Shown: piece after piece, positions 10,643 to 30,026 of the stretch
Numbering within the stretch: the first letter of the stretch is position 1
Layout: each line of letters opens with the position of its first letter
Virus record (IMG/VR): IMGVR_UViG_3300025652_009266
Coordinates: 1-31,023 of that record
Direction: 5' to 3' (one strand)
Source of the DNA: a virus
DNA: 31,023 nucleotides
Translations under genes and position numbers: made by a program
Notes under the pieces: model-generated
Told to the model about the DNA's origin: nothing
What the model saw: the letters and a program-made list of their open reading frames with translations, nothing else
Databases searched by the model: none

Positions 10643-10648
10643 ATATAT

Positions 10649-10761: not shown

Positions 10762-10762
10762 G

Positions 10763-11455: not shown

Positions 11456-11461
11456 ATATGT

Positions 11462-12529: not shown

Positions 12530-12532
12530 ATT

Positions 12533-12763: not shown

Positions 12764-13384
12764 TTAGTTATAAAATTTATATCTAGATTTACCTATAGCT
12801 CCTCTACCATACCAATTCAACTTTGGATTATTTCTTATTTCCTGTACATCAATTAAGTTTAAAGGTAAAATAAATCTTTTTTCAAAAGAACGGTCATGTT
12901 CAACATCACCTTCAGTATTAGTATAACCTGGATCAGTATATCTATTTTTTTCAGATGAATGCCATAATTGAAAGAAACCAACAGAATAACCTATATGTGG
13001 TAATCCCATCATTATACTAGTATCGTTATAATTTTCATCATATCTCCTACTACCGTAAATTGTTTCTTTATCATTTACATATTCATCTATGATATTATAA
13101 AAATTTTCAGGAAGCTTGATATCACTATCTAAATGTAAAACCCAATCAACTGGATTTATATATTCTAAACCTTCATTAATAGCTTTACATTTTGCAAATT
13201 GTGCATTTTGATAAATTTTTTCACTGTATATATATTCTATATTATTATCTTTACATATATTAATGGTTTTACTATCATCTTTATGAGTTATAATTAACCA
13301 GCTATTTAATATTTCTTTATTAGAAATTATTTTTAATAGGTAATCACTATAATCAATTGAAACTGTTACTGCATCTATTTTCAT
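12764..13384 (-). CDS. GT-A-type glycosyltransferase ending the second cassette
   Basis: The 206-residue protein starts MKIDAVTVSIDYSDYL, has AQFAKCKAINEGLEYI (61-76), DWVLHLDSDIKLP (80-92) with the DSD metal motif at 86-88, and a later DPGYTNTEGDVEHDRSF acceptor-side segment. This fits the GT2/GT-A fold, with a nucleotide-sugar donor and Mn2+ or Mg2+. It is the last gene of the long operon, its ATG overlapping the upstream stop (ATGA). Length is near the minimum for a catalytic domain and no membrane anchor is visible. No clear terminator was found in the 37 bases that follow. Confidence 0.72.
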   Translation of the reverse strand: MKIDAVTVSIDYSDYLLKIISNKEILNSWLIITHKDDSKTINICKDNNIEYIYSEKIYQNAQFAKCKAINEGLEYINPVDWVLHLDSDIKLPENFYNIIDEYVNDKETIYGSRRYDENYNDTSIMMGLPHIGYSVGFFQLWHSSEKNRYTDPGYTNTEGDVEHDRSFEKRFILPLNLIDVQEIRNNPKLNWYGRGAIGKSRYKFYN

Positions 13385-13911
13385 AAATCAAAAATATCGA
13401 CTCTATCTTTACCGTAAAAGTTTTTAAATCCTTTTTTATTCAAAATTTCTCTATACAACGGTGTTTCGTAATTATATGGAAAACAAAATATATCTGGTAT
13501 ATAACCTAATTTTTGTTTAAAATCCTGTAACATATATCGATTATCTGATATCATACATTCAACACAATCCGCTGTTTTTATATTATGGAAATGACTATGA
13601 CACCCTATATAACAATCATCTGATTCATCAATTTCCTTAATTTGAGACCATTTCATATAATTTGTATAATCACCGTTAAATGCCTTTTTATGTGCTTCAT
13701 TACATGTAATATATTCATCATTTTGTTCAATATTTTCAGGGCATACAATATCACTACTGATAAAAAAATATTTTTTTGTTTTTATATTTTTAAGTTCCTC
13801 TAAAAATACATACTGAGTATATAAACCGTCATCAAATGTAAGTGTATATTGATCTAAAGGTAAATCGAAAAACCTTTCTTCAAACTCATGAATTATTAAT
13901 ATAGGTTTCAT
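13381..13911 (-). CDS. Polysaccharide deacetylase (NodB/CE4-like)
   Basis: This 176-residue protein has the CE4 motifs: TFDDG (25-29) with catalytic and metal-binding aspartates, CHSHFH (104-109) with metal histidines H105 and H109, and IFCFPYNYE, the RxxY-like motif region. CE4 enzymes remove N- or O-acetyl groups from sugars. It is short for the family (about 200 or more), and the end after the PYN motif is brief. No signal peptide is present, so a cytoplasmic sugar precursor is a likelier substrate than cell-wall polymer. It is translationally coupled to neighbours on both sides by four-base overlaps. Confidence 0.78.
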   Translation of the reverse strand: MKPILIIHEFEERFFDLPLDQYTLTFDDGLYTQYVFLEELKNIKTKKYFFISSDIVCPENIEQNDEYITCNEAHKKAFNGDYTNYMKWSQIKEIDESDDCYIGCHSHFHNIKTADCVECMISDNRYMLQDFKQKLGYIPDIFCFPYNYETPLYREILNKKGFKNFYGKDRVDIFDL

Positions 13912-14645
13912 TTTAATTTTAACACATATTCAATCACATCACTTTTAAAGTGACCTTTAATTGTTTCAGCATTCGATATAATGCAGTGCCCGCCTATTTT
14001 ACCTTTCGGCGAGGTAAGCACTGGTCTGGTTACATTAGTTTTACCTAATAACCTATAACCTCTATTATATTCAGTATTCCATTTTGTAATAACATCATTA
14101 AACGGTAGATTATTTTCATTACAAAGTCTATCAACATCATCATGAAAAGCAATACACATACCATAGTATAGAGTTGAGAGTATCTTTGCAGTTTCTACAG
14201 TCTCAGAATTTTTTAAAATTTTATATTTAACTTTAATATTTTTAAAATGTCTTTTTGCTAAACTAAGACTGCGTTTATTTTCTGCTCCTATAAACTTTTT
14301 AAATGTCTTTAAACTTTTATATAGATTTGGATGGACTCCAATTATTGGTGAATATACAATATTAAGTGTTGATATATGTTTTGTTGTACCAGGTAATACA
14401 GTGCTATGTATTATAGTAAGTTTAGGATTATATTGTTTAATATATTCTTGAACTATATGTATAAAATTTTCACTATATGGTATACAAATATTCATTACAT
14501 CAATATTATCAACGGTCATCAAAGGTGAATCAATATCTATAATAGTTACGTTATAACGTCTTTTACTGTATAAATCGTAAATTGCCTTACCTGTTTCACC
14601 ATTACCTATTATTATAATATTTTCTTTTTTACGTTTAAAAATCAT
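13908..14645 (-). CDS. Shortened UDP-glucose/GDP-mannose dehydrogenase-like protein
   Basis: The 245-residue protein has an N-terminal Rossmann fold (IIIIGNGETGKAIYDLYS, GNGETG at 14-19), IIHSTVLPGTT (78-88), a central helix with ETVETAKILSTLYYGMCIAF (148-167) and GKIGGHCI (215-222) with C221 in the catalytic position of nucleotide-sugar dehydrogenases. These enzymes oxidise a sugar C6 alcohol to a carboxylate through a cysteine thioester. It stops about 25 residues past the cysteine, so the C-terminal substrate-binding domain of full-length members (about 400 residues or more) is missing. It may be a dehydrogenase of reduced form or act on another substrate. Confidence 0.68.
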   Translation of the reverse strand: MIFKRKKENIIIIGNGETGKAIYDLYSKRRYNVTIIDIDSPLMTVDNIDVMNICIPYSENFIHIVQEYIKQYNPKLTIIHSTVLPGTTKHISTLNIVYSPIIGVHPNLYKSLKTFKKFIGAENKRSLSLAKRHFKNIKVKYKILKNSETVETAKILSTLYYGMCIAFHDDVDRLCNENNLPFNDVITKWNTEYNRGYRLLGKTNVTRPVLTSPKGKIGGHCIISNAETIKGHFKSDVIEYVLKLK

Positions 14646-15292
14646 GATCTATTAAAAATACAAATAAATGGTTCTGCTTGTTTATAACCTGAAATACTAC
14701 CATAATATAAGTCACGGTATTTTATGTATTCACTACTTAAAGGATCTGGCGATTGCTGTAACTCTGTTATATAACCATCAATGCAGTTATATTTAATTTT
14801 TGTATAATCTTCAATATTATAAAATGTATTATAATTTATACCTTTAAAATTCCATTCACCGCTACCTGGAATTGAAAATTCATACAATGAAGTTACAGAG
14901 CAGTTAGGTCTCGGTCTACATGCAACTCTTACTGATTTTGATACTAGCTCATGGTCAATATGTATATCACCACTATAGTTTGTAAACACTGTATCAGGTT
15001 GTATTATATTTACTACAGATGTTATATAATTATTAATAGATAAATGCGAATGTTTATCTAAACTTACATCATCATATACATGTTGTATTAATTTTGAAAT
15101 ACCTAAACTCTTAATATTTTTATCTAGAGTTTGTTTACGTAGCGTTTCAATATCAGATTTACTACCTGGTCTATTCCCCCTACACAACACACATAGTGTT
15201 ATATTATTATCTTTAGATAGTTTTAATATAGTACCTCCCATACCAAACTCTGCATCATCTGGATGAGCAACAATAATTAAAATTTTTTTCAT
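14642..15292 (-). CDS. PIG-L/LmbE-family deacetylase
   Basis: The 216-residue protein starts MKKILIIVAHPDDAEFGMGG with AHPDD at 9-13, and has GDIHIDHELVS (108-118) with HIDH at 111-114. These are the zinc-binding motifs of the PIG-L superfamily, which removes acetyl groups from N-acetylglucosamine conjugates (GlcNAc-PI, mycothiol and bacillithiol precursors) and other sugars. Length is standard. With a CE4-type deacetylase two genes away, the cassette appears to encode two unrelated deacetylases, suggesting free amino groups on the final sugar. Overlaps of four bases on both sides. Confidence 0.85.
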   Translation of the reverse strand: MKKILIIVAHPDDAEFGMGGTILKLSKDNNITLCVLCRGNRPGSKSDIETLRKQTLDKNIKSLGISKLIQHVYDDVSLDKHSHLSINNYITSVVNIIQPDTVFTNYSGDIHIDHELVSKSVRVACRPRPNCSVTSLYEFSIPGSGEWNFKGINYNTFYNIEDYTKIKYNCIDGYITELQQSPDPLSSEYIKYRDLYYGSISGYKQAEPFICIFNRS

Positions 15293-16179
15293 AATAAACT
15301 ACCTATAATATCAGATATATTATATTTTGATGTATATATTGTATTCATTTTTGAGCAATCAGGTTTTCTGGTAATTATATCACCATAATTATCAGAAAAT
15401 ACTTCATTATATTTTTTGTATAAAATATTAACATCTGTTTTTGATATACCCATGCATATTTTAGCTAAGTCATTAATACATATCATATTATTTTCATTAC
15501 CAATATTAAAAATATCTCCAATATATACATCACGCGTTATTAATTCTGACATAAAATTAACAGCATCTTTAATATCACAAAATGTTCTACACTGATCACC
15601 GGTACCATATATATTAATATCGTTATTATTTTTAATAGCATTAACCATTTTGAATAAAACTCCTTTATCATCGCCAATACCTGTGACATTAAAAAATCTC
15701 ATTATTATACTATTAGTGCATAAAGATTTACATAAAAATTCTGATGTTAATTTACCAGATGCATATCCCCATCTAGATTTATCAGGGCAACCTATAGTTA
15801 AATTATCTGTTTCATTTGCTAAAGTAGTATTATGATATACTTCTGATGTACTACTGAAATATATTTTTTTATCATATTTTTTTACTAAATTAAATACATT
15901 TAAATTTATTTTTAACATATCATTTAAAAATGTATCTGATTCATTATCAATTCGATTAATACCAACAGGACTGGCTAAATGAAAAATAATATCACACTCA
16001 CTAATCTCTTTTTCTAAAGTATCACCGTTATTTGTTAAATCATATGATATATATCTATATGGTAATTTATTTTTATTAGTAGTTTTATCGATAGCGGTAA
16101 CTATATAACCTAAGCTATGTAGCTTAGTTGATAGAGCTTTACCTATAAATCCATTACCACCAGTTATTAAAATTTTCAT
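15289..16179 (-). CDS. NAD-dependent sugar epimerase/dehydratase (extended SDR)
   Basis: This 296-residue protein has MKILITGGNGFIGKAL with the GxxGxxG dinucleotide motif, DIIFHLASPVG (63-73), SSTSEVY (109-115), and the catalytic YASGK (139-143), then RFFNVTG and YGTGDQCRTFCDIKDAV. This is the extended short-chain dehydrogenase fold of UDP-glucose 4-epimerase, UDP-xylose synthase and GDP-mannose dehydratase relatives. It acts on a nucleotide-bound sugar; which one cannot be told. The intact active site indicates a working enzyme. Its start overlaps the upstream SDR-like gene by four bases. Confidence 0.85.
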   Translation of the reverse strand: MKILITGGNGFIGKALSTKLHSLGYIVTAIDKTTNKNKLPYRYISYDLTNNGDTLEKEISECDIIFHLASPVGINRIDNESDTFLNDMLKINLNVFNLVKKYDKKIYFSSTSEVYHNTTLANETDNLTIGCPDKSRWGYASGKLTSEFLCKSLCTNSIIMRFFNVTGIGDDKGVLFKMVNAIKNNNDINIYGTGDQCRTFCDIKDAVNFMSELITRDVYIGDIFNIGNENNMICINDLAKICMGISKTDVNILYKKYNEVFSDNYGDIITRKPDCSKMNTIYTSKYNISDIIGSLL

Positions 16180-16754
16180 GTATATAAATCTTTAATTTCA
16201 CGTATTGTATTAACGCGAGTATTATTATAATTATATATTATATTACGTTGATTTACAACTTTTAAAGTTTGGTTAATAAAACTATCTAATGTTATATATT
16301 CAATTTTTTTGCACATATCGTTATCGCTAACCATATTCAATCTAAGTTTTTTCATCAACCCTTTATTCCTCGTTTTACCATATACACGAGGTATTCTTAA
16401 TATTACCCAATCATCATAATTATATTGAATGTATTTTTCCATTAGTAATTTACTGTAACAGTAAATATTTTCAGGTAATTCAACACCTTTAGTACTAGCG
16501 AATATAAGCTTAGCATTCGATTGCTGAGCAAGTCTAACCATATTAATAGTACCATTTACAATTGTATCTACTACCTTTTCACTATTATGGAAATCAAAGT
16601 CATCACTCGGACCAGCAAAGTGAAATAAATTATTACAACTATTGTAGTTATATTGTAATATATTACCATAATCAATGTTAATACCTCTGGTTTGTTTTTT
16701 TAAATTACCCCCTAAAAACCCTCTTTCCGCTCCAGTAAATATGTTAGTTATCAT
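16176..16754 (-). CDS. Short SDR-type sugar epimerase-like protein
   Basis: The 192-residue protein resembles extended SDRs with TGAERGFLGGNL in the nucleotide-binding loop (7-18), LFHFAGPSD (43-51), LIFASTKGVE (83-92), a YCYSK motif (98-102) giving Y98-x3-K102, and WVILRIPRVYG. It lacks much of the early Rossmann fold and the C-terminal substrate-binding part, being about 100 residues shorter than its neighbour. It could bind NAD weakly or pair with the full-length epimerase. It may also be a decaying paralogue, although the frame is intact and coupled at both ends. Confidence 0.68.
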   Translation of the reverse strand: MITNIFTGAERGFLGGNLKKQTRGINIDYGNILQYNYNSCNNLFHFAGPSDDFDFHNSEKVVDTIVNGTINMVRLAQQSNAKLIFASTKGVELPENIYCYSKLLMEKYIQYNYDDWVILRIPRVYGKTRNKGLMKKLRLNMVSDNDMCKKIEYITLDSFINQTLKVVNQRNIIYNYNNTRVNTIREIKDLYT

Positions 16755-17800
16755 TTTATATACTTTGGGTTAGTTTTATGAAAAGCAAACATCGTATCAC
16801 ATTTACACTTATCAAGAACACATGTCATACAACTAGTTAAAAAAGTTTTATTGAGTTTATGAACTGGTATAATTTCTTCAGAACAAATATTTTGTATTGT
16901 ACCATCCATATTAATGACATACATTAATGACTTACAACTCCAACCTTTAAATTTATTAAGTTCATATCTATTAATATCACCTTCTGTTAAAATATATTGG
17001 TTATCATTATTATCGATGTATTTAATATTAGTTGTTATTTCACCTACATGTTCTTTTAGATATTTTGTTGCATTTTTAATACCTACACCTTTACCGTAAT
17101 TTGATTTTATTTTTTTTGTAGGTGTAATATAATCATGAAAATACGTCCAAAAATCATCTTGATATTTCGGAGACCAACCCCCAATAACACCACTTTCTAC
17201 GCTTTGCAAAAAATTGAGATTAACGAATACATCGTTATCTTTAAATCTATCGATAAGATCTTTCGTCTGTTTCCAATATTTTTTATTATCAGGTAGATTA
17301 ATATTCGGGAATATACTTAAATTTTCTAAATTTTTATTTAAGTCAATAACTTTTTGAATATACTTTTCACCACAGTATTCAGGGTGATAAGAAGCTTCTA
17401 TTGTAAGTTTATTATTTTCTTTAACATCAAACTTTTTATAAAAATCATAAGGCTTTGCTAAATTAGTAATTAAATCAACCTGTATACAATATTTATGTTT
17501 ACATAATTCTGAAATAATATCTTCGATATCTGGGTGCAACGTCGGTTCACCACCGAGTATTTCAACAGAATATGGCGTCTTAACCATTAGTTTTATCGAT
17601 TTAATAGTATTCTTCCATGCTTTAATAAGATGTGGTTTAGTCTTAAATGTATTAAGATTAAAATTCATTGCACTGCAATAACTACACCTATATTGGCATA
17701 TATCTATAAGATTCCATGAAAATGTAATTAAATCATATTTTTCATCACCAGCTTCTTTAATATTATTAATATTAATGTTTTGATTATTTATTTTTTTCAT
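16751..17800 (-). CDS. Radical SAM protein 1, SPASM/twitch-like C-terminus
   Basis: The 349-residue protein has CQYRCSYC (C35, C39, C42) binding the [4Fe-4S] cluster, EILGGEPTLHPDI (80-92) for SAM, ITNLAKPYDFYKKF and SYHPEY in the barrel, and a C-terminal domain starting FKGWSC with NICSEEI, CMTC and CKC, a pattern of at least six cysteines for auxiliary Fe-S binding. The substrate is unknown. Its N-terminal IKEAGDEKYDLITFSWNL and barrel motifs recur in the next upstream gene (protein 2), so the two look like tandem duplicates. The start is coupled to the upstream stop by ATGA. Confidence 0.85.
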   Translation of the reverse strand: MKKINNQNININNIKEAGDEKYDLITFSWNLIDICQYRCSYCSAMNFNLNTFKTKPHLIKAWKNTIKSIKLMVKTPYSVEILGGEPTLHPDIEDIISELCKHKYCIQVDLITNLAKPYDFYKKFDVKENNKLTIEASYHPEYCGEKYIQKVIDLNKNLENLSIFPNINLPDNKKYWKQTKDLIDRFKDNDVFVNLNFLQSVESGVIGGWSPKYQDDFWTYFHDYITPTKKIKSNYGKGVGIKNATKYLKEHVGEITTNIKYIDNNDNQYILTEGDINRYELNKFKGWSCKSLMYVINMDGTIQNICSEEIIPVHKLNKTFLTSCMTCVLDKCKCDTMFAFHKTNPKYIK

Positions 17801-18822
17801 TTTATATTATCAATATATTTAGGAAATAAGAATTTTGTCGAACAATCACACCGTTCTAGCGGACATTTAACGCATTTTGTTAGATTTTTTTTAGTTAACT
17901 CTAACAATGATATTCGTTCACCTGTACAACCATTTTCTATGATACAATCCATATTAACGTTATATATCATAGGTTTGCAATTCCAACCTTTAAATTTTGC
18001 ATAGTCATTTACCACTATTTCTTTTTCAGTATAATAATATTTACCTGCTTCATCTTGGTAAGGTATATTTTCATGACCAGTTGTTAAATTACTACTAATA
18101 TCATCATCACATTGTTTACTAGATTTTAACGGGCTAGCTTTTTCATTTAGTCTACATGGTGTGTTTAGTTTATCATTTTTCAATATATTATCAAATTTTT
18201 TAAAAAACTCATCTGTATAATTAGGCTTATAACCTTTATTAATACCATCTTCTACCTCAAACAACAAATTAACATCGATATGGATATTATTTTTTTTGAG
18301 TGTATTAATTGTTAACATAGTTTTACCCCACAATTGTGGTTTATCATGTAAATTTATTGAAGGGTTTACATCCATACCTAAATTATGTAATTTTATTATT
18401 TTTTCTGTAAATGAAGTATTATGATATTCGGGGTGATAGGATGTTATTAATCTAAGTTTATTTTTAGATTCCTCTGAATAAAACTTTTTATAAAAATTGA
18501 AAGGTTTAGCTAAATTAGTAATCATATCAATACTAGTGCAGTTTTTATTGTTAGATAACTCTTTTATAATTTCATGTATATCTGGGTGTATTGTAGGTTC
18601 ACCTCCTAATAATTCGATCGTAAATGATATACCAAGACGCTTGGTATGTAACATTTTTATAAAAGGTTTCCATACTTTTAAATTTTTCTTATCAAATGTA
18701 TTAAGATTATAATTTACAGAACTACAGTATGTACAATTGTATTGACATTTATCTATCAATTGCCATGAGAAAAAAATACTATTATAATCATCGTGACCAG
18801 CTTTAATAAATTTTTTTACCAT
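17797..18822 (-). CDS. Radical SAM protein 2, SPASM/twitch-like C-terminus
   Basis: This 341-residue protein closely parallels protein 1: IKAGHDDYNSIFFSWQLID, CQYNCTYC (C26, C30, C33), ELLGGEPTIHPDI, ITNLAKPFNFYKKF, SYHPEY and an FKGWNC domain ending in CVKCPLERCDCSTKF. Differences are scattered through the length, as expected for an old duplication. The rSAM core would cleave SAM to a 5'-deoxyadenosyl radical; the C-terminal cysteines would hold one or two auxiliary clusters. It is overlapped by seven bases by the end of the transketolase C-half gene, so the group is translated as a unit. Confidence 0.85.
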   Translation of the reverse strand: MVKKFIKAGHDDYNSIFFSWQLIDKCQYNCTYCSSVNYNLNTFDKKNLKVWKPFIKMLHTKRLGISFTIELLGGEPTIHPDIHEIIKELSNNKNCTSIDMITNLAKPFNFYKKFYSEESKNKLRLITSYHPEYHNTSFTEKIIKLHNLGMDVNPSINLHDKPQLWGKTMLTINTLKKNNIHIDVNLLFEVEDGINKGYKPNYTDEFFKKFDNILKNDKLNTPCRLNEKASPLKSSKQCDDDISSNLTTGHENIPYQDEAGKYYYTEKEIVVNDYAKFKGWNCKPMIYNVNMDCIIENGCTGERISLLELTKKNLTKCVKCPLERCDCSTKFLFPKYIDNIK

Positions 18823-19292
18823 TTACAGTTATCCCAACCTAATCTTATAAAATTTGTATCTGTATCTCTTATACTTTGTGTTAAAGTATTAAGAAATTCT
18901 GAACGAGTTGTCGGTTCATGACAATTAACATTGAGAGCATTCATTAGTTTATAATCGTCATCAGGTAGATGCCCAATACCACATTTACTATAACACCCAT
19001 TTGCACCTGCATTGACGAATGTAACATTTTTACCGAAATTTACCACACTAAATTTTAATTGCTCATAACCTCTTTGATATACAAACCCAGCAACACCATA
19101 TATAATAACTTTTTTACCTTGACTAGCCAAACCACCAGCAACATTAACCATATTTGTTTCTTGTATACCAAAATTAAGACACCTTTCTGGATATTTTAAT
19201 TTAAACTTTTTAAACCCCCACATATCTGCATGTAAAAAATATAAATTTGGGTTGTTATATTTTGATAAAAATGTATCTAATGTATTTCTCAT
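18816..19292 (-). CDS. Split transketolase-like protein, pyrimidine-binding half
   Basis: The 158-residue protein (from the ATG of MRNTLDTF) covers the transketolase Pyr domain: LYFLHADMWGF, LNFGIQETNMVNVAGGLASQGK (39-60, with E45 in the cofactor-activating position), VIIYGVAGFVYQRGYEQLK and VTFVNAGANGCYSKCGIGHLPDDDYKLM. It ends before any transketolase C-terminal domain. The other half lies one gene upstream at 20172-20870. A longer frame opens at 19346 but would overlap the previous gene by 53 bases, whereas this ATG starts one base after the upstream stop, so I chose it. Confidence 0.8.
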   Translation of the reverse strand: MRNTLDTFLSKYNNPNLYFLHADMWGFKKFKLKYPERCLNFGIQETNMVNVAGGLASQGKKVIIYGVAGFVYQRGYEQLKFSVVNFGKNVTFVNAGANGCYSKCGIGHLPDDDYKLMNALNVNCHEPTTRSEFLNTLTQSIRDTDTNFIRLGWDNCKW

Positions 19293-19293
19293 T

Positions 19294-20175
19294 TTAATTA
19301 TAAACGTCTTTAAGATAAATATTAAGTTCACTTGAAAAATCCTCAAATGTCATTTCACGACCAGTAATTTTAAAGTTATTTACACCTTGTTTAATAAGTT
19401 GCTTAATTTGAGATGTTTTTAAATCCATTCCATAAGAATCTCCTAATTTTTTAATAACCTTTTCTTGACCAATATTCGGATCAAACCCTTTCGGTTTTTT
19501 ATATGTAGATCTTTCAGATAACCAACACTCTTCTACTTCATACATCTCTTTTTGACCTGCATCAACCCATGGTTTTTTATAAAGTCTATTTTGTTTAGCA
19601 ATTTCTTCAAAATGTATACCGTAATACGGGCAATTATAAATACATGTATCATTAAGCATAATTTCATACTTATTTTGGTCTAAATCTATAAATCTTTTAT
19701 CAAATATATGTTCACACCTAGGTACAATATAATCATATAGTTTTTCAAGTCGTTTATATAAATTAAAATCATCATCTGTCATTGGAACGTTTATCTTACC
19801 AAAACTTGTAATTGATCTCGTATGTTTATATAAAGGATATTTTTCTTTGATGTAATTGAGTAACGTTTCATTTGCAGTAATAATAACATTACCTTTTTTA
19901 TGGAACTTTTTAAGTAATTCGTTACCCGTTTTATCTGTAAGATCAATAACAGGGTTTGTAAATGTAAGTGCAATTGAGATATTATTCCGATAGTAAAAAT
20001 TAATAACTTTATCATCGTAACATATATCTCTATTAATACGACCACCGTTCCATGAGCAATTATTAATACCATCATAAACTGTAATATCAAAATTTTTAAT
20101 AATATTTTTATTATTAAAGAAATATAATCTTAGTTCTTTACTTTTGCTAAATGCTCCTGCTATATTAAATCTCAT
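19294..20175 (-). CDS. U32-peptidase-like protein with four conserved-type cysteines
   Basis: The 293-residue protein looks like a TIM-barrel of the U32 group (COG0826): early NIAGAF and YDGINNCSWNGGRIN, IIITANETLLNYI (98-109 region), DYIVPRCEHIFDKRFIDLD (148-166), MLNDTCIYNCPYYGIHFE (173-190) and a near C-terminal GVNNFKITGREM (264-275), typical of U32 GxxxFKIxGR. C154, C178, C182 and C217 could bind an Fe-S cluster, as in UbiU/UbiV-type U32 proteins that take part in oxygen-independent hydroxylation. The U32 link is by pattern only. It sits between the two transketolase halves and is coupled to both. Confidence 0.5.
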   Translation of the reverse strand: MRFNIAGAFSKSKELRLYFFNNKNIIKNFDITVYDGINNCSWNGGRINRDICYDDKVINFYYRNNISIALTFTNPVIDLTDKTGNELLKKFHKKGNVIITANETLLNYIKEKYPLYKHTRSITSFGKINVPMTDDDFNLYKRLEKLYDYIVPRCEHIFDKRFIDLDQNKYEIMLNDTCIYNCPYYGIHFEEIAKQNRLYKKPWVDAGQKEMYEVEECWLSERSTYKKPKGFDPNIGQEKVIKKLGDSYGMDLKTSQIKQLIKQGVNNFKITGREMTFEDFSSELNIYLKDVYN

Positions 20176-20870
20176 AACTGTTCAATTGGTTTATAATGCC
20201 ATTGGACCGGGTCGTTTTGCATATAATTAACCCCGTATCCTTTAACTGTTACAAATATAATAACACTTGGCTTGTTTTTACCTTGTCTTTTCTGCATTAC
20301 AAACGCATTTTTTATATCATTTATATCATGACCATTAACAGTAATAACATTCCAACCATTATTTTTCATAAAACTTATAACTGCAGTTGTATCAAGAACA
20401 TCTGACGTCTTACCAGTAACCTGATAATTATTATAGTCAACAGTGACAAATATATTATTAACACTATTATGACCTATATATTGAATTGCTTCAAGGGTAC
20501 TACCCATTTGCAATGTTGCATCGGTTATATTTACCCAAACTTTATGTGTAGGGTTAGCAATTGCAATACCAGCCCCAACCCCGAGAGCATTTCCCATCGT
20601 TTCCTCACTATAATCAACAAAATCAATTTCATTATGTTTTACACCTACAGAAAGATTTTCAATATTTTCAAGGTAACCTAATTTTTTCCAGATTAAATAA
20701 TATGCTTGAGAACCAAAAGGCTTTCCTAGTACAATCTTATCACGGTATGGTACAACAATTTTATTTTGAAAAAGAGCTTCAATGTACGTTAACATTGAAA
20801 GTGCTGATGGTACATGTGTTAGTTTTTTATCAAATGAATATTTAACTAGCTCTGTAACTATATTATTCAT
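20172..20870 (-). CDS. Split transketolase-like protein, TPP-binding half
   Basis: The protein (232 residues from MNNIVTEL) matches the transketolase N-terminal domain: SMLTYIEALFQ, IVLGKPFGSQAYYLIW, EETMGNALGVGAGIAIA (89-105), NITDATLQMGSTLEAIQY (114-131) and FVTVDYNNYQVTGKT (141-155). The diphosphate motif GDG reads TDA with the metal-binding D117 kept, and the asparagine pair follows. It would bind thiamine diphosphate with the Pyr half to move a two-carbon ketol group. A longer frame starts at 20960, but its extra 30 residues are AT-biased and would overlap the previous gene; a possible promoter sits in that stretch. Confidence 0.82.
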   Translation of the reverse strand: MNNIVTELVKYSFDKKLTHVPSALSMLTYIEALFQNKIVVPYRDKIVLGKPFGSQAYYLIWKKLGYLENIENLSVGVKHNEIDFVDYSEETMGNALGVGAGIAIANPTHKVWVNITDATLQMGSTLEAIQYIGHNSVNNIFVTVDYNNYQVTGKTSDVLDTTAVISFMKNNGWNVITVNGHDINDIKNAFVMQKRQGKNKPSVIIFVTVKGYGVNYMQNDPVQWHYKPIEQL

Positions 20871-20881
20871 AATAATATATA

Positions 20882-20909
20882 TATATATCATTAAAAACAG
20901 TTTTATCAA
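20882..20909 (-). promoter_or_regulatory. Possible internal sigma70-like promoter
   Basis: Minus strand TTGATA (20904-20909), 16-base spacer, TATATA (20882-20887), eleven bases before the ATG at 20870. The 61-base gap here is the largest within the cassette. The -10 lies in an AT dinucleotide run, so the match may be fortuitous. Confidence 0.35.
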
Positions 20910-20931
20910 CTTGACATTATGTTTCAGCTTT

Positions 20932-21882: not shown

Positions 21883-21900
21883 ATTAAAATCTATTAATTA

Positions 21901-22482: not shown

Positions 22483-23495
22483 ATTTTTCTTTCTGTACTA
22501 TTTTCTTTACTAAGTTTAGATAATTTAGACACTTTATTACCAATATTTATTTTTTTACTTTCTATGTTAAAGAAACACTTTTTAAACTTGCATATAGTTG
22601 GTTTTAAATTACTAAAATATTTAGTATAATTATTTTTATTATTAATATTAAATACCGGTGGTGTATCTGAAAAGAGATGACTTTCACAAAAGAAAGAACT
22701 ACCATCCCAGTCGACTACAATTCTATCTAAAGGTGCATTGCATCTATAACCAGTAAATGTATTATCATTTTCAAGCCAAAAACTAAATCTAGATCTTTTT
22801 TGATTATCCACCGGTATTGTATCGTCAAAAAAGAAACTATGTTGTTTCAATTCGTTTATATCTTCATTTTTTTCAATATATGATACTTCGGCTATATCAC
22901 TCTCTATTGGTTGTGAAACCTTACTATCAATTAAAGGGCATACTTCGCAATGATCAGTACCGATAATTTTTGTTGCAAATTTAAAATCTTTCATAACATC
23001 TTTTTTACTGTTATACATAAACGATAGCATGTTAAGCATACCATATTTTTTTAATATTATTGCTTTTTTAATAAACGTAGATATATTTGTTTGTGTATTA
23101 TGGTAGCTACCACACACTTTCATTGTTTGTTTATTGTTTGAATATCTCTTACAGAATTTTTCCCACCAATCATTTTTAAGAGCAAGATTAGATTGTATAT
23201 CAAATGTAAATTTAACATTTTTATTAACCCCTTCAAATAAACCATCTATATAATCAAAGAGGTATGGGTATATTGTCGGTTCACCTCCGTATATATACAT
23301 ATATATAGGCTTATTTAAATGTTCATATGCTGTATTTATAAGCTCGCATATATGTTTTACATTATGTATAACAAATGGTACTTTATTATAATGGAGATCA
23401 GTGCAGTAGTAGCAATTATAATTACATTTTGATGTTAATCTAACTTCTATAGTAAATATATCCTGCTCTACCCCGACTGTCTTATAATTATGCAT
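22476..23495 (-). CDS. Radical SAM protein 4, SPASM/twitch-like C-terminus
   Basis: The 339-residue protein begins with EVRLTSKCNYNCYYC (C24, C28, C31), has MYIYGGEPTIYPYL (66-79), GSYHNTQTN in the barrel, and a C-terminal FTGYRCNAPLDRIVVDWDG, SFFCESHLF and ICKFKKCFF section with the auxiliary-cluster cysteines. The insert between the barrel and this domain has a second cysteine pair (DHCEVCPL). A serine/lysine-rich tail (KKINIGNKVSKLSKLSKEN) follows, unique in the group. It overlaps both neighbours by seven or eight bases. The substrate is unknown. Confidence 0.85.
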   Translation of the reverse strand: MHNYKTVGVEQDIFTIEVRLTSKCNYNCYYCTDLHYNKVPFVIHNVKHICELINTAYEHLNKPIYMYIYGGEPTIYPYLFDYIDGLFEGVNKNVKFTFDIQSNLALKNDWWEKFCKRYSNNKQTMKVCGSYHNTQTNISTFIKKAIILKKYGMLNMLSFMYNSKKDVMKDFKFATKIIGTDHCEVCPLIDSKVSQPIESDIAEVSYIEKNEDINELKQHSFFFDDTIPVDNQKRSRFSFWLENDNTFTGYRCNAPLDRIVVDWDGSSFFCESHLFSDTPPVFNINNKNNYTKYFSNLKPTICKFKKCFFNIESKKINIGNKVSKLSKLSKENSTERKIC

Positions 23496-24453
23496 TTTGT
23501 TTCTTTTCTTTAAATATCTTTAATAACCCATCACAATTACAGCTTGTATGAGGGCAAGATACAGCACAAACTCTACCTATATCTCTAAAAAAGAACGGAT
23601 TTGTTAATAAATCTTTTCTTTCTTCAAAACATACTCGATGAACTACACCGGTATATGATATTTCATAATTATTATTCCAGCAATCCCAATTTTTAAAATT
23701 AGTAAATTCATTTTCAAAAATATTATAATCATTATACATTTTTTTATTACCTAATTTATCTTCAAATGTAAAATAATCTGGGTAATCTTTAAATCTTTCA
23801 AATTCTTTATAAAATCTTTCACTATAATTTTCTAATTTATGTACATCCCCATCTGCATACAAAAAATGTGGATGTATATTGATTTTATCACCGTATTTTT
23901 CTAATTTATCAACAAAATCATGCGTTTTCTGCCAAAGTTTTTCATTATAATGAAGCATTACATTTATTTTTACTTTAAACCCTCTGCTAACAGCAGTATC
24001 AATATTTTTTAAAAGTATTTCAAAACCTTTCTTATATTTAAATTCATATTCCGGGTGAAAGCTAAAAAGAAAATATAATTTATCATCATATTGATGATTT
24101 TTAAAAATACTATTTTTATTTGAACCGTTTGTAGTTATATATAACCTACCATCTGTATGTTTCTTTACTGCTTCTAAACATTTTTCTATCAACTCAGGGT
24201 AATGTGGATGGATTGTCGGTTCACCTCCTAACAACCCAAGAAATACAGGTAATTTTGCTCGAGCAATATTTTTTATAACATGTTGTTGTTTCTGCCAGTC
24301 ATCTATTTTACCCCATTCATCACCATACTCTTTCATAGCATAACAATAGGTACATTTAAAATTACACTGTGTACTAACATCCCAATGTACATATAGTCTC
24401 TGTATTTTATGCTTTATATCATATTGTTTTATGAAGTCTGGTTTATTGTTCAT
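23488..24453 (-). CDS. Radical SAM protein 5, SPASM/twitch-like C-terminus
   Basis: The 321-residue protein has HWDVSTQCNFKCTYCYAM (C30, C34, C37), FLGLLGGEPTIHPHY (71-85), LYFLFSFHPEYEF, and a C-terminal FKNWDCWNNNYEIS, VHRVCFEER, then CAVSCPHTSCNCDGLL, a dense cysteine set. The SFHPEY stretch is the counterpart of SYHPEY in proteins 1 and 2, so it belongs to the same expanded family. The next gene downstream is protein 4 and the upstream one a GT2 glycosyltransferase coupled by ATGA, which places glycosyl transfer within the rSAM gene order. Confidence 0.85.
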   Translation of the reverse strand: MNNKPDFIKQYDIKHKIQRLYVHWDVSTQCNFKCTYCYAMKEYGDEWGKIDDWQKQQHVIKNIARAKLPVFLGLLGGEPTIHPHYPELIEKCLEAVKKHTDGRLYITTNGSNKNSIFKNHQYDDKLYFLFSFHPEYEFKYKKGFEILLKNIDTAVSRGFKVKINVMLHYNEKLWQKTHDFVDKLEKYGDKINIHPHFLYADGDVHKLENYSERFYKEFERFKDYPDYFTFEDKLGNKKMYNDYNIFENEFTNFKNWDCWNNNYEISYTGVVHRVCFEERKDLLTNPFFFRDIGRVCAVSCPHTSCNCDGLLKIFKEKKQNA

Positions 24454-25106
24454 TTTTTAAATCTTAAATCAGTGTTATATTTATCAAAACTAATATTATC
24501 TAGACCATCTGTAGTTTGAATCCAAACAGGCTTGCAAATATAAAGAATGCTTTTGAGTTGTAAAGAGCTGAATATTTTATAATCATTATTAATGTCATCA
24601 TCTCTAGGCCAATACTTAATACCATTTCTCTTAAAAACTATTTGACTCAATTGAAAGTCAGTATGGTCATATTTTTTTAAAAAATCAGAAAGAATATTGA
24701 CGTTTTTATAATTTCTAAATTTTTTAAAAAACCTTTCATAGTATACTTTTATGTTTTGTTTATTAGTTATAATATCTTTTGATATATAATTTAAAAAATT
24801 AACATCATAATTATAATCTAAAAATTTAAAAAAATTAGATTTTATATAATCATCATCCTCAAGAAAGAAAACAAAATCTCCACAACTTTTATTAAATAAA
24901 AATTTATATGTATCTGTTAGTTTCTTATGTTTTTTATAAAAATAAGAAATATTAACATTATTTTTATATACTTCAGTTATATCATTACTATCATTATTAA
25001 CAATAATTTCAATATCATATTGAGGTAAATTATCTAATATACTTTTAATACATCTTTTAAATAAAAGTGGTCTGTTGTGAGTTAAAATTAAAATTGATAA
25101 CTTCAT
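24450..25106 (-). CDS. GT2 glycosyltransferase within the rSAM operon
   Basis: This 218-residue protein starts MKLSILILTHNRPLLFKRC, has IEIIVNNDSND (32-42) for the nucleotide and FVFFLEDDDYIKS (78-90) with EDDD as metal site, then WPRDDDINNDY, probably the acceptor-side acidic motif. It is a GT-A/GT2 sugar transferase of short form. There is no membrane segment. It lies between two rSAM genes with four-base overlaps on both sides. A weak AAAGGT precedes the start, one of few Shine-Dalgarno-like sequences here. Confidence 0.78.
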   Translation of the reverse strand: MKLSILILTHNRPLLFKRCIKSILDNLPQYDIEIIVNNDSNDITEVYKNNVNISYFYKKHKKLTDTYKFLFNKSCGDFVFFLEDDDYIKSNFFKFLDYNYDVNFLNYISKDIITNKQNIKVYYERFFKKFRNYKNVNILSDFLKKYDHTDFQLSQIVFKRNGIKYWPRDDDINNDYKIFSSLQLKSILYICKPVWIQTTDGLDNISFDKYNTDLRFKK

Positions 25107-26128
25107 AATTTTACCTTTTTAAAATCTAACCCGTCAAAGCAAGCATTAAGTAAACAAATCTCACACTTACTTAAATACGTTTTAAAATCTAACTCATGTA
25201 AACTTAACGGCTTTATATTCTTATAATTGTAATCATTACATCGGTATATTTTTAAAGTGTAGTCAATAACAATATTTTTTTTACCACTTTCACATTTCAT
25301 ATATTTGAAATTCTTATGAATATTATTACCTTTAACGTCAGAGTAATTAATTACTTTATCACCATCTATAATAAAATCCCAACCCTTTTCAAAATACATT
25401 CTTAATTCAGGGTAGTATTTCATCCAATATCTATACTCCAAACTTTTACCGTTATCCTTGCCTATTAAATAATCATCATCTTTAAATTTTTCATATCCTT
25501 TATAATTGTGTAATGATAAATTTTCTATTTCAGTAAATTTCATAATTAATTTTTTAGGGTACTTTTTAGCAATAAAATGAAGCTCTTTAAGCATTTGTTC
25601 TTTTTTAGGTATTTCGGTACTAAAAAAACAATAACCAAGACTGCTATATTTTTTGCATATATCCATTTTTTTAACATATTCTTCAACTGTTTGTTTACCT
25701 ATATGATAGCTGTTACATATATTAACAGTATGGTTTGTGGTTTTTATTCTATTAATTTCTTTAAGAAATTTTTCTAATCTACTAGTAGATAAACTTAAAT
25801 TTGTATGGGTTTGTAAAAATAATTCTCTTTCAGGGAAAAGTTCAACAATTCTATAATTTAAATATTCCCAATATTTACTTAAAGTCGGTTCACCACCGTA
25901 AAAATAAAAAAATATTTTTTTCTTACTTTTTGGTATTTCAGCAAGTTTATCTAAAACATTATCACACTGTTCTTTAGTCCATGTTTTAGTCTTATTATCG
26001 TATTCATCACAAAACCAACACCGGTGATTACATCTAAAACAAGGTTTTAAAGTAATTTTCAAATCATAATCAGGCCATTCTTCAGTTTTAACAATTTCAA
26101 AACTTTTTATTATTTCTAAATTATTCAT
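25103..26128 (-). CDS. Radical SAM protein 6, SPASM/twitch-like C-terminus
   Basis: From the ATG of MNNLEIIKSF the protein has 341 residues. It shows LKPCFRCNHRCWFCDEY, in which C33, C37 and C40 form CxxxCxxC and C30 is an extra cysteine, FYFYGGEPTLSKYW (74-87), NSYHIGKQT, and a C-terminal YMKCESGKKNIVIDYT with YRCND and CEICLLNACFDG. The longer frame from 26152 would overlap the previous gene by 28 bases, while this ATG makes a standard ATGA overlap with its stop, so I prefer it. Substrate unknown; same family as proteins 1-5 and 7 by motif order. Confidence 0.83.
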   Translation of the reverse strand: MNNLEIIKSFEIVKTEEWPDYDLKITLKPCFRCNHRCWFCDEYDNKTKTWTKEQCDNVLDKLAEIPKSKKKIFFYFYGGEPTLSKYWEYLNYRIVELFPERELFLQTHTNLSLSTSRLEKFLKEINRIKTTNHTVNICNSYHIGKQTVEEYVKKMDICKKYSSLGYCFFSTEIPKKEQMLKELHFIAKKYPKKLIMKFTEIENLSLHNYKGYEKFKDDDYLIGKDNGKSLEYRYWMKYYPELRMYFEKGWDFIIDGDKVINYSDVKGNNIHKNFKYMKCESGKKNIVIDYTLKIYRCNDYNYKNIKPLSLHELDFKTYLSKCEICLLNACFDGLDFKKVKL

Positions 26129-27045
26129 ACCTTTTGTTTGTAATAATTCCACTGTATATCACAACCGCAATTTGATAAAGGGCATTCCACACACTCTGCC
26201 TTTCCAGTTATATTCAATGGCTTTTTAGTACAATCATTAAATATTGCACCAAAGTGAGTTATTTTGTATCTTAAAGGTGTACATTTCCAACCATAAAATT
26301 TTGTCAATTTATTATTGTAAATAGAATGTTTATTTAAATTATATGTTTTATTATCATTTGTTTTAAACATATATCTATTGTTATCTTTTTTAGCAAAATC
26401 TTTCATTTCACTTAGAAAATCTTTATCATAATTTACATTATATTCATAACAATCGGTTAAAAAACTAACTGTAAATTCAATATCTTTTTGTATTAAACTT
26501 TTAATTAATTCTTTATTTTTTTCATAATATTTTTTATTATCATGAATCATTATTATAGGTATAATTTTTATATATTCAAACTCGTGTATTTTTATAATTT
26601 TTTCTAATATACTTTCATCATAATATTCCATATGAACTGACGGGCATATTAGAAGTTTACTACAATCTTTATTATTAAATGCTTCATAATAACTTATATT
26701 TTTTTTAAGATTTGTTATTAAACTAATTTCTATACAATTTTCATATGAATTTAAAATTTGAATTATTTCATATAAATTATTATGTAAAGTTGGTTCGCCA
26801 CCTAATAAATCTACTTCATATTTACCTAATGTCTTTATTTTTAACCTTTTTAAAACATTTTTATATGATTGATTTTGTTGATTATTCTTAAAAAAAGAAG
26901 ATTTTGGTCTGGTTTCATCTGTACCAAAGCCTTCATTGCAATATGTACAAGCTTGGTTACATACATCTATTAAATGCCATGTAAAGGTTTTTATATTATA
27001 ATCTTTATTACCCGCTTCAATTATATCTTTATTACAATGCTTCAT
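26125..27045 (-). CDS. Radical SAM protein 7, SPASM/twitch-like C-terminus
   Basis: The 306-residue protein begins with IIEAGNKDYNIKTFTWHLID, very like proteins 1 and 2, then CNQACTYC (C29, C33, C36), DLLGGEPTLHNNL (79-91), PSVHMEYYDE and a C-terminal FYGWKCTPLRYKI, NDCTKK and CVECPLSNCGCD. It is the third member of the EAGxxxY subgroup although it lies about 7 kb from the other two. The barrel SVHMEY corresponds to SYHPEY. Coupled to both neighbours by four-base overlaps. Confidence 0.85.
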   Translation of the reverse strand: MKHCNKDIIEAGNKDYNIKTFTWHLIDVCNQACTYCNEGFGTDETRPKSSFFKNNQQNQSYKNVLKRLKIKTLGKYEVDLLGGEPTLHNNLYEIIQILNSYENCIEISLITNLKKNISYYEAFNNKDCSKLLICPSVHMEYYDESILEKIIKIHEFEYIKIIPIIMIHDNKKYYEKNKELIKSLIQKDIEFTVSFLTDCYEYNVNYDKDFLSEMKDFAKKDNNRYMFKTNDNKTYNLNKHSIYNNKLTKFYGWKCTPLRYKITHFGAIFNDCTKKPLNITGKAECVECPLSNCGCDIQWNYYKQKV

Positions 27046-28007
27046 ATTCTATCTTTAATAATTTTAATTATATCATCATTTTTATTTAAAAAAATACTTT
27101 TAAAGTTATATTCTATATCATATTTACGATATTTTAACCCGGTATCAATATTGATATAATTATCATCAACATCATGGTAAATTATTTGCTTATTATAAAA
27201 TTTACATTCAGCTATAAAACGTGGGCTACAATCAAAAGAATTTATTTTTATATTACCTTCTAAATGAGTAGGTGTATATATATACGCGTCAAACTTTTTA
27301 AAAATGTCATCAACAGGTAATTTAGGGAATGTAACATTTTTTAATAAACTAAATAGTTTTTTATATTTTTCATTTTCATTTGTAAGAATAATATAATTTT
27401 TATACTTATATTGCATTATAACATCTAATAGATAATCATCACAAATCTTCCTACAGTTAGATGTTATATATAATAATGCAGTTTCAGTTTTAATACTTTC
27501 ACTCTTTTTAAAAATATCAAACTTTATCTTCTTTTTATAGTTAACAGATATTTTAGTATCTTCATCATTATATACTCTATTATCCTGCAATAGAGTTATA
27601 TTTTTATAAGGTAAATTATAGTGGTAATCTTTATTAGAACATCTAAATGAAAAAATATTTTTAAAAGAAAGAGCAACCCCGTATCTTAACATTGTACGGG
27701 TAAACCCACCATCTACAAAAAGTATATTTTTACCTATTACATATTTAGGTCGATATTCGAAAAAGGTATTTTTTTTAATATCATCTATAACACTTTTATC
27801 TAAATCATACTTTGTATGTAATGCTTTTTCAATTATATCCCATGACATATCTTCACATATTAATATACCAATCTTCATATGATCTTTTAATAGAACAAAA
27901 TATTCTATAATTTCATATAAATGACCAGAAATACCGTGATTGGTATCACCACTCCAAGTCATTGTTATATATAAATCGTAATTTTTATCTAATTTAAGAT
28001 ATTTCAT
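27042..28007 (-). CDS. Putative GT-B-like glycosyltransferase, family uncertain
   Basis: The 321-residue protein has two apparent halves: an N-terminal one with SGDTNHGISGHLYEIIEY (19-36) and strand KIGILICED, and a C-terminal one with ALLYITSNCRKICDDYLLD, YIILTNENEKYKKLF, FDAYIYTPTHLEGN and FDCSPRFIAECKFYNKQIIY (258-277). Two Rossmann-like halves and a late acidic/S-P-R-F-I-A-E segment suggest a GT-B transferase binding a nucleotide sugar through the C-terminal half, but I cannot name the family. It lies between rSAM proteins 8 and 7 with four-base overlaps, so it is expressed with them. Confidence 0.5.
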   Translation of the reverse strand: MKYLKLDKNYDLYITMTWSGDTNHGISGHLYEIIEYFVLLKDHMKIGILICEDMSWDIIEKALHTKYDLDKSVIDDIKKNTFFEYRPKYVIGKNILFVDGGFTRTMLRYGVALSFKNIFSFRCSNKDYHYNLPYKNITLLQDNRVYNDEDTKISVNYKKKIKFDIFKKSESIKTETALLYITSNCRKICDDYLLDVIMQYKYKNYIILTNENEKYKKLFSLLKNVTFPKLPVDDIFKKFDAYIYTPTHLEGNIKINSFDCSPRFIAECKFYNKQIIYHDVDDNYINIDTGLKYRKYDIEYNFKSIFLNKNDDIIKIIKDRI

Positions 28008-29032
28008 TTATAAAAGTTTTTTCTGTAATAATTTACATCTTTTATTTTCTTACCCTTTTCTGGGTAGACTTTCATATCTAATTGATTTTCAATACCATCG
28101 CAAATATAAAAATACTTACACTTTAAGCACTCTATAGGTTTTTTATAGTCCTTTAGCCTATCATGTTTGGCTTTTATATAACCTAATTCTATCTTTTCAT
28201 TATGTGTATATGTTTTAGATAAATCTACATCATAATCATATATTTCTTTATTCCAGTCATAAACGTCGTATATATGCTGGTACTGATTACAAACATACTT
28301 TTCATATCCTTTCATAAAACAATAAGGGGTATATCGTACGTTAATGTAAGTTGTATGGTCTACAATTAAATCAATACATTTTTTAATATTATCTGTCAGC
28401 GCACTATAGTTGTCAATTGGTTCAAACGTTTTGTTATCATCCCAGTAATTGAGTGTTAAAAAATTAACTTGATATGGTTGTATCCTCTTAATAACATCAG
28501 CGTAAGCTATCAATCCCTTATAGTTCTTTTGATATACTGTACAGTTAATTCTTACCTTTATACCGTGTTTACCGCAAAGCTCTATAGCTTTATTAATCTT
28601 CTTCCAACCACCCTTTCGATCTACAATATCATCATGAACCTCTTCATTATAACCATGTAAACTAAAAAGTATTTCAGTTAACCCATGTTCTTTAGATTTA
28701 ATTAGAAATTTTTCATTCGAAAATACAGAACCGTTACTTAAACAACTTATATTATCGAACTTATCATTACAATAGTCTAATATTTTAAACCAATCTTTAT
28801 GTATAGAACTTTCACCACCTGATAAATCTACTTCTGATATACCGTATTTATGTAATATATCAATACGCTTTTTAATAGTTTCATATGGAGTTTTTTTATC
28901 TAAATCGTTTATATAATAACAAAATTCACAATGATAGTTGCAATGAAAACCGGTATCTAATTTAGCTCGATTACATCTTTTAGTGGAATAGTCTATATTA
29001 AAACTATCAACACTCGAATAATTAAAGTTCAT
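28004..29032 (-). CDS. Radical SAM protein 8, MoaA/SPASM-like
   Basis: This 342-residue protein differs from the other seven. It has LDTGFHCNYHCEFCYYIND (C31, C35, C38), VDLSGGESSIHKDW (68-81, GGES instead of GGEP), ILFSLHGYNEEVHD, typical of MoaA/NifB-like enzymes with SLHG, KGGWKKINKAIELC and a C-terminal IECLKCKYFYICDGIE cluster motif. The fit to rSAM proteins with a SPASM-type end is strong; its substrate may be a peptide or a sugar. It overlaps the upstream unknown gene by 11 bases and may be the first rSAM made. Confidence 0.85.
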   Translation of the reverse strand: MNFNYSSVDSFNIDYSTKRCNRAKLDTGFHCNYHCEFCYYINDLDKKTPYETIKKRIDILHKYGISEVDLSGGESSIHKDWFKILDYCNDKFDNISCLSNGSVFSNEKFLIKSKEHGLTEILFSLHGYNEEVHDDIVDRKGGWKKINKAIELCGKHGIKVRINCTVYQKNYKGLIAYADVIKRIQPYQVNFLTLNYWDDNKTFEPIDNYSALTDNIKKCIDLIVDHTTYINVRYTPYCFMKGYEKYVCNQYQHIYDVYDWNKEIYDYDVDLSKTYTHNEKIELGYIKAKHDRLKDYKKPIECLKCKYFYICDGIENQLDMKVYPEKGKKIKDVNYYRKNFYK

Positions 29033-29912
29033 TTTGAATATTTGTAACGTCTAATATATCTTCTAAAATCTTGTTATATTCGATAAACATATCTTCAGAT
29101 ATATTATTTTTTTCTTTACCTAATATTTCAATAAATTCCTTTATAATATTATGATCATCGATAGTATTAACAATTTGTTTGAACTCATCAATTTTATTAA
29201 ATACCGGCTCATCATCAGTTATATGTAGATCTATAAGTTTATGTATAGATTCAGGATACGGCATGAGTAAAGGAGGCCAACACTCCAATAAATCTTTCAA
29301 TTTTTTTACACCACTAAAATCAATTTCTTCAATACAATCGTCGAACATCTCCATTATAGTATCAATATCTTCTTTATCTTCTTCAGTTTCACAATCCTTT
29401 TTTAAATTTTGTAATTCTGCTTTATTTTTATCTGAAATATTTTTAACTATTTTAATGAATGATTGTTTAAGTAATTCAAATTTATTTTTTGGTATATCAC
29501 CACCTTTTAAAATATTTATATCCAGATTAAAGTCAAAATCACCCATCGACTCTGATATATCGTAATCAACAATAGTTTTATTTAAAACTGTACCATAAAA
29601 CAAATCTTTCGAAATTACATTATCAATCACTTTTTTATATAACAGCTTATATTTTTTAATAAAACTAGTTTCCTTTTTAATGTTATTAATAATATTTGTG
29701 TCTATAATTTCAAAGTGTGTTATATCTATTTTTTTAATATGATCACATTCATCAGTAATTAAATTATACATTGATATATAATTATTAGTACATTCTGTAA
29801 TTGGATACCTTTTTAACTTTGTATATAGTAATTTACTATTACCTATTGTAACTCTACAAATATACTTATGCAATTCCTTATTAAGGTTGTCTATAAATGC
29901 TGATTGCGACAT
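29022..29912 (-). CDS. Hypothetical 296-residue acidic protein heading the cassette
   Basis: From the ATG of MSQSAFIDNL the protein is mostly helical and acidic, with ISESMGDFDFNLDINILKGG (119-138), a charged stretch (KKDCETEEDKEDIDTIMEMF) and a striking LECWPPLLMPYPESI (209-223). I recognise no family. It sits between the virion genes and the rSAM cassette and might be a structural or assembly protein or the first operon gene. The longer frame to 29945 adds a hydrophobic N-terminus from AT-rich DNA; the chosen start follows an ATAAAATAT box by three bases. Confidence 0.5.
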   Translation of the reverse strand: MSQSAFIDNLNKELHKYICRVTIGNSKLLYTKLKRYPITECTNNYISMYNLITDECDHIKKIDITHFEIIDTNIINNIKKETSFIKKYKLLYKKVIDNVISKDLFYGTVLNKTIVDYDISESMGDFDFNLDINILKGGDIPKNKFELLKQSFIKIVKNISDKNKAELQNLKKDCETEEDKEDIDTIMEMFDDCIEEIDFSGVKKLKDLLECWPPLLMPYPESIHKLIDLHITDDEPVFNKIDEFKQIVNTIDDHNIIKEFIEILGKEKNNISEDMFIEYNKILEDILDVTNIQNEL

Positions 29913-29962: not shown

Positions 29963-30026
29963 CTAATTAGCCAGGTAACCTACAATATATGGTCTAGTTC
30001 GGGTAACCTGCACCGTATAATCTAGT
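29963..30026 (-). repeat. Duplicated C-terminal peptide-coding segment, second copy out of frame
   Basis: The virion-like protein ends TRLYGAGYPN with its stop at 29994-29996. The following DNA, read in another frame from 29998 to 29963, encodes TRPYIVGYLAN and then a stop. The two copies align at six of the ten residues of the tail. A +1 shift near the last codons would fuse the second copy to the protein. Confidence 0.6.

Follow-up and report, generated by a model that had tools for sequence, protein, structure and literature searches.

We analysed a 31,023-base stretch of DNA (the window), a fragment from an uncultured, T4-like marine bacteriophage (IMG/VR virus record IMGVR_UViG_3300025652_009266), which carries on its minus strand an operon of 21 co-directional open reading frames (ORFs; g1 to g21) reaching from position 12764 to ~29912 (Table 1). 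As a first-pass annotation made from the sequence alone had described, neighboring genes mostly overlap by 4-11 bases, the exceptions being an 18-base gap between g12 and g13 and, with starts consistent with the family, a gap of ~61 bases between g11 and g12. The likely true starts of g9, g11, g17 and g21 were set by the lengths of their homologues. Together, the 21 genes encode eight radical S-adenosylmethionine (rSAM) proteins, a split transketolase, two deacetylases, two short-chain dehydrogenases/reductases (SDRs), a nucleoside diphosphate (NDP)-sugar-dehydrogenase-like protein and three likely glycosyltransferases. In a simple hydropathy scan none of the cassette proteins showed a clear membrane segment, and the cassette contains no exporter and no peptidase. 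Scans for T4 late-promoter motifs, and likewise for sigma-70 promoters and terminators, gave matches at or below chance level in this AT-rich sequence and were set aside.

Table 1. Genes of the operon and its upstream neighbors, with corrected starts for g9, g11, g17 and g21.
Gene	Positions	Strand	Assignment	Basis
g1	12764-13384	-	weak GT-A-like (GT2-like) glycosyltransferase	PF13704 0.0047, below cut-off
g2	13381-13911	-	NodB polysaccharide deacetylase	PF01522 5e-9; alignment
g3	13908-14645	-	short NDP-sugar 6-dehydrogenase-like, weak	TIGR03026 2.9e-12, below cut-off; alignment
g4	14642-15292	-	PIG-L/LmbE N-deacetylase	PF02585 2.7e-19; alignment
g5	15289-16179	-	SDR	PF01370 7.5e-37
g6	16176-16754	-	compact SDR	PF04321/PF01370
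g7	16751-17800	-	rSAM, variable middle	PF04055
g8	17797-18822	-	rSAM, variable middle	PF04055
g9	18816-19292	-	transketolase pyrimidine-binding half (Transket_pyr)	PF02779 4.4e-7; CP220 counterpart CPT_0179
g10	19294-20175	-	barrel-like enzyme, conserved Cys	weakly U32-like
g11	20172-20870	-	transketolase thiamine diphosphate-binding half (Transketolase_N)	PF00456 4e-16; CP220 counterpart CPT_0072
g12	20932-21882	-	rSAM, variable middle	PF04055
g13	21901-22482	-	no assigned function, variable middle	
g14	22476-23495	-	rSAM, variable middle	sub-threshold Pfam, motifs intact
g15	23488-24453	-	rSAM, variable middle	PF04055 4.6e-14
g16	24450-25106	-	GT2 (GT-A) glycosyltransferase	PF00535 1.4e-9; 22/28 contigs
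g17	25103-26128	-	rSAM of conserved 5' end	PF04055; 36% identity to CPt10 rSAM; alignment
g18	26125-27045	-	rSAM	PF04055, phrog_13987
g19	27042-28007	-	core GT-B-fold glycosyltransferase (predicted fold), no sequence family	28/28 contigs
g20	28004-29032	-	core rSAM, C-terminal Cys cluster	PF04055 1.3e-19; 28/28 contigs
g21	29022-29912	-	protein with conserved W-P-x-L-L-x-P motif, hypervariable	
z2	29994-30677	-	virion-like protein directly upstream of operon; candidate acceptor	position kept in relatives
z1	30718-31023	-	virion structural/tail-fiber-type protein, C-terminal part, runs off window	phrog_8198

The count of eight rSAM proteins given by the first-pass annotation was borne out by profile search: PF04055 matched eight times within the window, seven of these scores exceeding the curated cut-off and that of g14 falling short of it, and the CxxxCxxC and GGE motifs and a C-terminal cysteine cluster were present in all eight proteins. 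A ninth rSAM protein, QueE, is encoded in the flank outside the operon. All eight cassette proteins scored far under every NCBIfam equivalog cut-off shown and no named rSAM family was assigned to them; their profiles matched the structures of BlsE, SkfB and viperin, all far below the curated family cut-offs. The core rSAM protein, g20, is 49% identical to a Campylobacter phage rSAM protein, and in a 14-row alignment of its relatives C238, C302, C305 and C311 were invariant, as were the rSAM cysteines.

The sugar enzymes were likewise largely recovered: the two transketolase halves, the NodB and PIG-L deacetylases and the two SDRs (g5 and g6, first read as epimerases) all held up, and the dehydrogenase-like protein was found as g3, with a match that is weak and below the cut-off. 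When relatives were aligned, the NodB motif of g2 (D27, D28, H105, H109), the PIG-L motif of g4 (H10, D12, D13, D113, H114) and the GGxC cysteine of g3 were invariant, and the conservation of these residues, together with that of the g20 cysteines, argues for what are probably working enzymes. The best NCBIfam match of g5, a sub-threshold one, was UDP-xylose/UDP-4-keto-pentose synthase. Where two or three glycosyltransferases had been expected, g16 was clear, g1 weak, and g19 was assigned from its predicted fold: PF00534, a glycosyltransferase family, does not detect it, while its AlphaFold model (predicted local distance difference test score, pLDDT, 91) led Foldseek to GT-B enzymes, WbnH and BshA among them, at template modeling (TM) scores of ~0.45. 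The proposal that g10 is U32-like found weak support, as it had no Pfam match, PF01136 included, and a Foldseek search with its model (pLDDT 72) ranked the U32 structure 5d88 tenth (E 0.01). Sequence profiles of g19 and g10 found no relatives in the PDB.

Scanning IMG/VR yielded 22 loci with the g20 query and 38 with the g19 profile; a search for related loci with g8 alone found none. We tabulated gene presence in 28 contigs, 27 from phages (26 from IMG/VR and CP220) and one from a Bdellovibrionales metagenome-assembled genome (MAG). Both g20 and g19 were present in all 28, which is partly a selection effect since both served as queries, yet the loci fetched by one also hold the other; g16 was present in 22, g11 in 21, g9 and g5 in 19 each and g2 in 18, all of these being lower bounds because the loci are partly truncated. 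The kept gene order runs g21-g20-g19-g17-g16 at the start and g11-g9-g6-g5-g4-(g3)-g2-(g1) at the end, and since it recurs in many other contigs, the operon is not a chance arrangement. Between them lies a region that is swapped: in two related contigs (L037 and L038), identity is 95% on the g20 side and 96-98% in the opposite flank, but the 9-10 kb middle is similar only in patches, at 67-83%. Thus, conserved ends enclose an exchangeable middle, and the pathway is real, organised and common to many phages; the earlier claim of a dedicated sugar and rSAM pathway is well supported. A T4-like major capsid protein is encoded in the relatives, but gp23 of one of them (G001) is only ~35% identical to its best phage records. 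In another related locus (L079, 5979-6308) a HesB/IscA-type iron-sulfur carrier (PF01521) is encoded within the rSAM operon.

Conserved ends around a variable middle recall O-antigen loci, and one may ask whether the cassette serves to remodel the host surface, altering host lipopolysaccharide (LPS) or capsule precursors during infection and so blocking superinfection or helping release. This is how the deacetylases and UDP-glucose dehydrogenase of phage IBB_35 have been read (PMC3322345), and also the glycosyltransferases of pelagimyophages (PMC7029224). Yet the flippase PF01943 and the initiating phosphoglycosyltransferase PF02397 were absent from the seven large records of relatives, the cassette proteins lack evident membrane segments, and in relatives a tail-fiber-type gene lies within the operon itself; we consider such remodeling unlikely. 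The cassette was found in no O-antigen locus whose product is known, and the only bacterial homologue that was found lies outside any O-antigen locus. The bacterial search with the g19 profile returned three draft-genome contigs, of which two, from Neomarinimicrobiota and Gracilibacteria MAGs (L053 and L055), are short, carry the phage cassette and probably represent stray DNA from phages, hinting at the host at most.

On its upstream side the operon faces virion-like genes. The partial protein z1 resembles cyanophage proteins annotated as tail fiber or virion structural protein, and between it and the operon lies z2. Across relatives, mean identity is 30% for z2 and 29% for g21, versus 88% for the next small gene upstream and 74% for g20, a hypervariability that fits receptor-binding proteins under diversification. 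The C-terminus of z2 reads RLYGAGYPN, and three divergent relatives have similar Tyr/Gly/Pro-rich tails. In one relative (G009) a tail fiber with an S74 chaperone domain is encoded just upstream of the cassette, and a head-decoration-like protein follows it. Directly downstream of the operon (12113-12726) are a Zn_protease-family protein (PF05618), which is kept next to the cassette in relatives, and an Hc1 histone-like protein.

This location also bears on two further explanations. The first is DNA hypermodification, in which the sugar would be placed on modified bases as armour against restriction. QueE, QueD and FolE, with PhoH between them, flank the cassette (8125-12112), a 7-deazaguanine set as in the Campylobacter phage relatives that carry 2'-deoxy-7-amido-7-deazaguanosine (dADG) in their DNA (PMC6884629); T4-like phages can decorate DNA with pentoses (PMC12838424), and UDP-pentose synthases are what g5 matches best. 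However, these separate deazaguanine genes account for dADG and are likelier DNA-modification genes than the cassette, and in several relatives the cassette genes adjoin tail-fiber genes; nor was TGT/DpdA present in the records of eight relatives, though Campylobacter phages do not need that enzyme. On balance we judge hypermodification, which is not needed to explain the cassette, to be distinctly improbable. The second, suggested by Timms et al. for the Campylobacter phage genes (PMC2853527), is that such genes improve host metabolic fitness and have no dedicated product; the fixed gene order, strong co-occurrence, fiber-gene location and modular exchange point instead to one pathway, leaving this explanation a very slim chance. 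Elsewhere in the window are two more glycosyltransferases outside the operon (2806-4313; phrog_22332 and phrog_2456) and a thymidylate-kinase-like P-loop protein (4731-5495), a relative of CP220 CPT_0006, that might phosphorylate a modified nucleotide.

A further link to fibers came from the relatives. A protein with a cysteine-rich repeat, typically (CTCNCNY)n, accompanies the genes of the system in 13 sister contigs, in CP220 and in the Bdellovibrionales contig, and in sister operons such a tail-fiber-type gene lies inside the operon. In several relatives the repeats directly precede SDxRLK, where the Peptidase_S74 domain begins and its tail-fiber cleavage site lies; given the self-cleavage mechanism described for S74 domains of phage and Bdellovibrio fibers (PMC10769870), cleavage at the serine of this motif would leave the Cys repeats as a new C-terminus. 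Scanning the DNA located 81 Cys-repeat stretches, CP220, CPt10 and CP21 included. Where a single ORF held three or more repeats, 38 of 44 loci had an rSAM-like ORF nearby, compared with two of 36 control loci of equal mean length that held chance or lone matches (Fisher p 8e-14, a value that is not corrected for related contigs and overstates independence, some of the 44 being near-copies); the two control loci that scored positive, L145 and L173, may themselves be true cases. In CP220, CPT_0180 has six repeat copies, its repeat being the sole intragenic one that Timms et al. mention (PMC2853527), and it adjoins CPT_0179, the g9 counterpart; the three repeat-associated rSAM proteins of the sister operons have CP220 relatives as well (CPT_0184, CPT_0023 and CPT_0099). 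In one contig (L022, 3955-6519) four tandem genes differ in their N-terminal parts and share the same Cys-repeat tail, and two other Cys-rich CxxC-repeat proteins are encoded at L010 39106-39531 and, in CP220, L034 24206-24577, one of them just upstream of a g20 relative.

Peptides of this kind look like maturase substrates, and the Twitch/SPASM-like rSAM proteins resemble tailoring enzymes of ribosomally synthesized and post-translationally modified peptides (RiPPs) and of aminoglycoside-type products, so that a RiPP-like product or a small molecule that diffuses out of infected cells comes into consideration. But the repeat-bearing proteins are larger than short leader peptides and in several cases include an S74 chaperone domain, and the cassette lacks the exporter or peptidase noted above; we regard such a product as very unlikely.

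Among the targets that the first-pass annotation had named, virion glycosylation thus gained support and de novo host-surface polysaccharide lost it. Because of the tail-fiber neighbors, the hypervariable virion-like genes upstream and the Cys-repeat tail-fiber-type proteins of the relatives, we favor, with about even confidence, the maturation and glycosylation of the phage's own receptor-binding appendages. The operon would be a virus-encoded tailoring pathway: in the order of steps that we propose, rSAM chemistry, the split transketolase, oxidation and epimerisation, and de-N-acetylation would build an unusual sugar, which the GT-B (g19) and GT-A (g16, g1) transferases would then attach in the cytoplasm to receptor-binding virion proteins, the candidate acceptors being the hypervariable z2 directly upstream and possibly g21. 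The conserved end genes would make and attach the core unit, while the exchangeable middle, with its rSAM and unassigned genes, would set the chemistry; in the sister and Campylobacter phages an extra block of three rSAM genes probably also modifies the Cys-repeat protein. The modification might serve receptor binding or escape from host defenses.

Several observations weigh against this reading. The Cys-repeat motif is absent from the window and from ten related records, so that the strongest evidence for a peptide acceptor does not cover the window itself, and a Cys-repeat acceptor there was rejected; the repeats support the story at the level of the family, and the acceptor in the window is proposed from its context. 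Only g14 weakly matches the three repeat-associated rSAM proteins. On a g19 tree the window groups with repeat-lacking contigs, and repeat presence needs ~4 changes, so that the tree does not show the Cys tail as marking one clade by a single gain or loss. Moreover, z2 has no Pfam or PHROG match and is placed in the virion by its position, hypervariability beside tail fibers fits host-surface remodeling too, and the Campylobacter phage counterparts are scattered and have been read as host-capsule enzymes (PMC3322345).

More broadly, it is possible, if rather less probable, that these loci represent a widespread and unrecognized class of post-translational virion modification, also found in a Bdellovibrionales genome, in which multiple rSAM proteins and glycosyltransferases remodel receptor-binding appendages. 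In many lineages the target would be a (CxCNCNY)n peptide at the fiber tip after S74 self-cleavage, and interchangeable modules would diversify tip chemistry as O-antigen loci diversify glycans. If so, phages would have, besides changes of protein sequence, chemical tailoring as a means of varying host recognition, and the enzymes employed would be of types that are not known to work on virions.

The first-pass annotation held phages with more than one or two rSAM genes to be rare and stated that no phage system of this make-up had been described. The former was partly wrong: Timms et al. counted 11 in CP220 and 12 in CPt10, remarked that such numbers are highly unusual and reported that a module containing five of these genes is interchangeable (PMC2853527). 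The latter must be qualified by these phages, with their scattered counterparts of most of the core, and by the rSAM cassettes reported for pelagimyophage host-recognition islands, though no explanation was found in the literature. The pelagimyophage cluster resembles the operon in that it is a hypervariable island of large size, lies among the structural genes of T4-like phages from the sea and combines tail fibers and glycosyltransferases with reported rSAM cassettes (PMC7029224); it differs in that its glycosyltransferases are treated as LPS- or DNA-related, its rSAM cassettes being compared here by description only. SPASM/twitch tailoring enzymes (RiPP maturases, BlsE, viperin and MoaA) share the rSAM core and C-terminal Cys clusters.

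The Bdellovibrionales contig, MEQL01000015 (L054/L175/L176; 52 kb, from a draft MAG), has relatives of g4, g9, g11, g16, g15, g10, g2, g5, g6, g19 and g14, together with a variant Cys-rich-tail protein, its rSAM proteins and an S74 protein. Unlike the window, it has ordinary bacterial genes around these and genes on both strands, and its g20 copy appears truncated, so the cassette may be decaying. That Bdellovibrio binds prey with S74 fibers (PMC10769870) is suggestive only.

The closest known phages are the Firehammervirus members CP220, CPt10, CP21 and IBB_35 (Campylobacter group II), for when g20, g17 and g8 were searched with tblastn, their closest relatives among sequenced phages fell wholly or chiefly in this group. 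Like the window, they are T4-like and have many rSAM genes, FolE, a QueD-like protein, QueE, PhoH and a short NDP-sugar dehydrogenase; CP220 has relatives of g20 (CPT_0157), g19 (CPT_0136), g11, g9, g6, g5, g4 and g2, CP21 also of g17 and g16, and in IBB_35 a polysaccharide deacetylase, an LmbE-like protein and a UDP-glucose dehydrogenase were noted and effects on the capsule proposed (PMC3322345). In contrast to the window, their genes are scattered round the genome and not gathered in one operon, their rSAM module includes an amidinotransferase, and CP220 has CPT_0180 and its three rSAM proteins, absent from the window, itself a fragment. Many rSAM proteins in one phage have thus been known, and left unexplained in the literature, since 2010; what is new is a system shared across contigs, its modular middle, the hypervariable virion-like genes next to it and its link to fibers and Cys repeats. 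On this proposal the Campylobacter phage rSAM proteins would belong to one pathway with glycosyltransferases and a Cys-repeat fiber-type protein, and what they are for could be tested in phages that are in culture.

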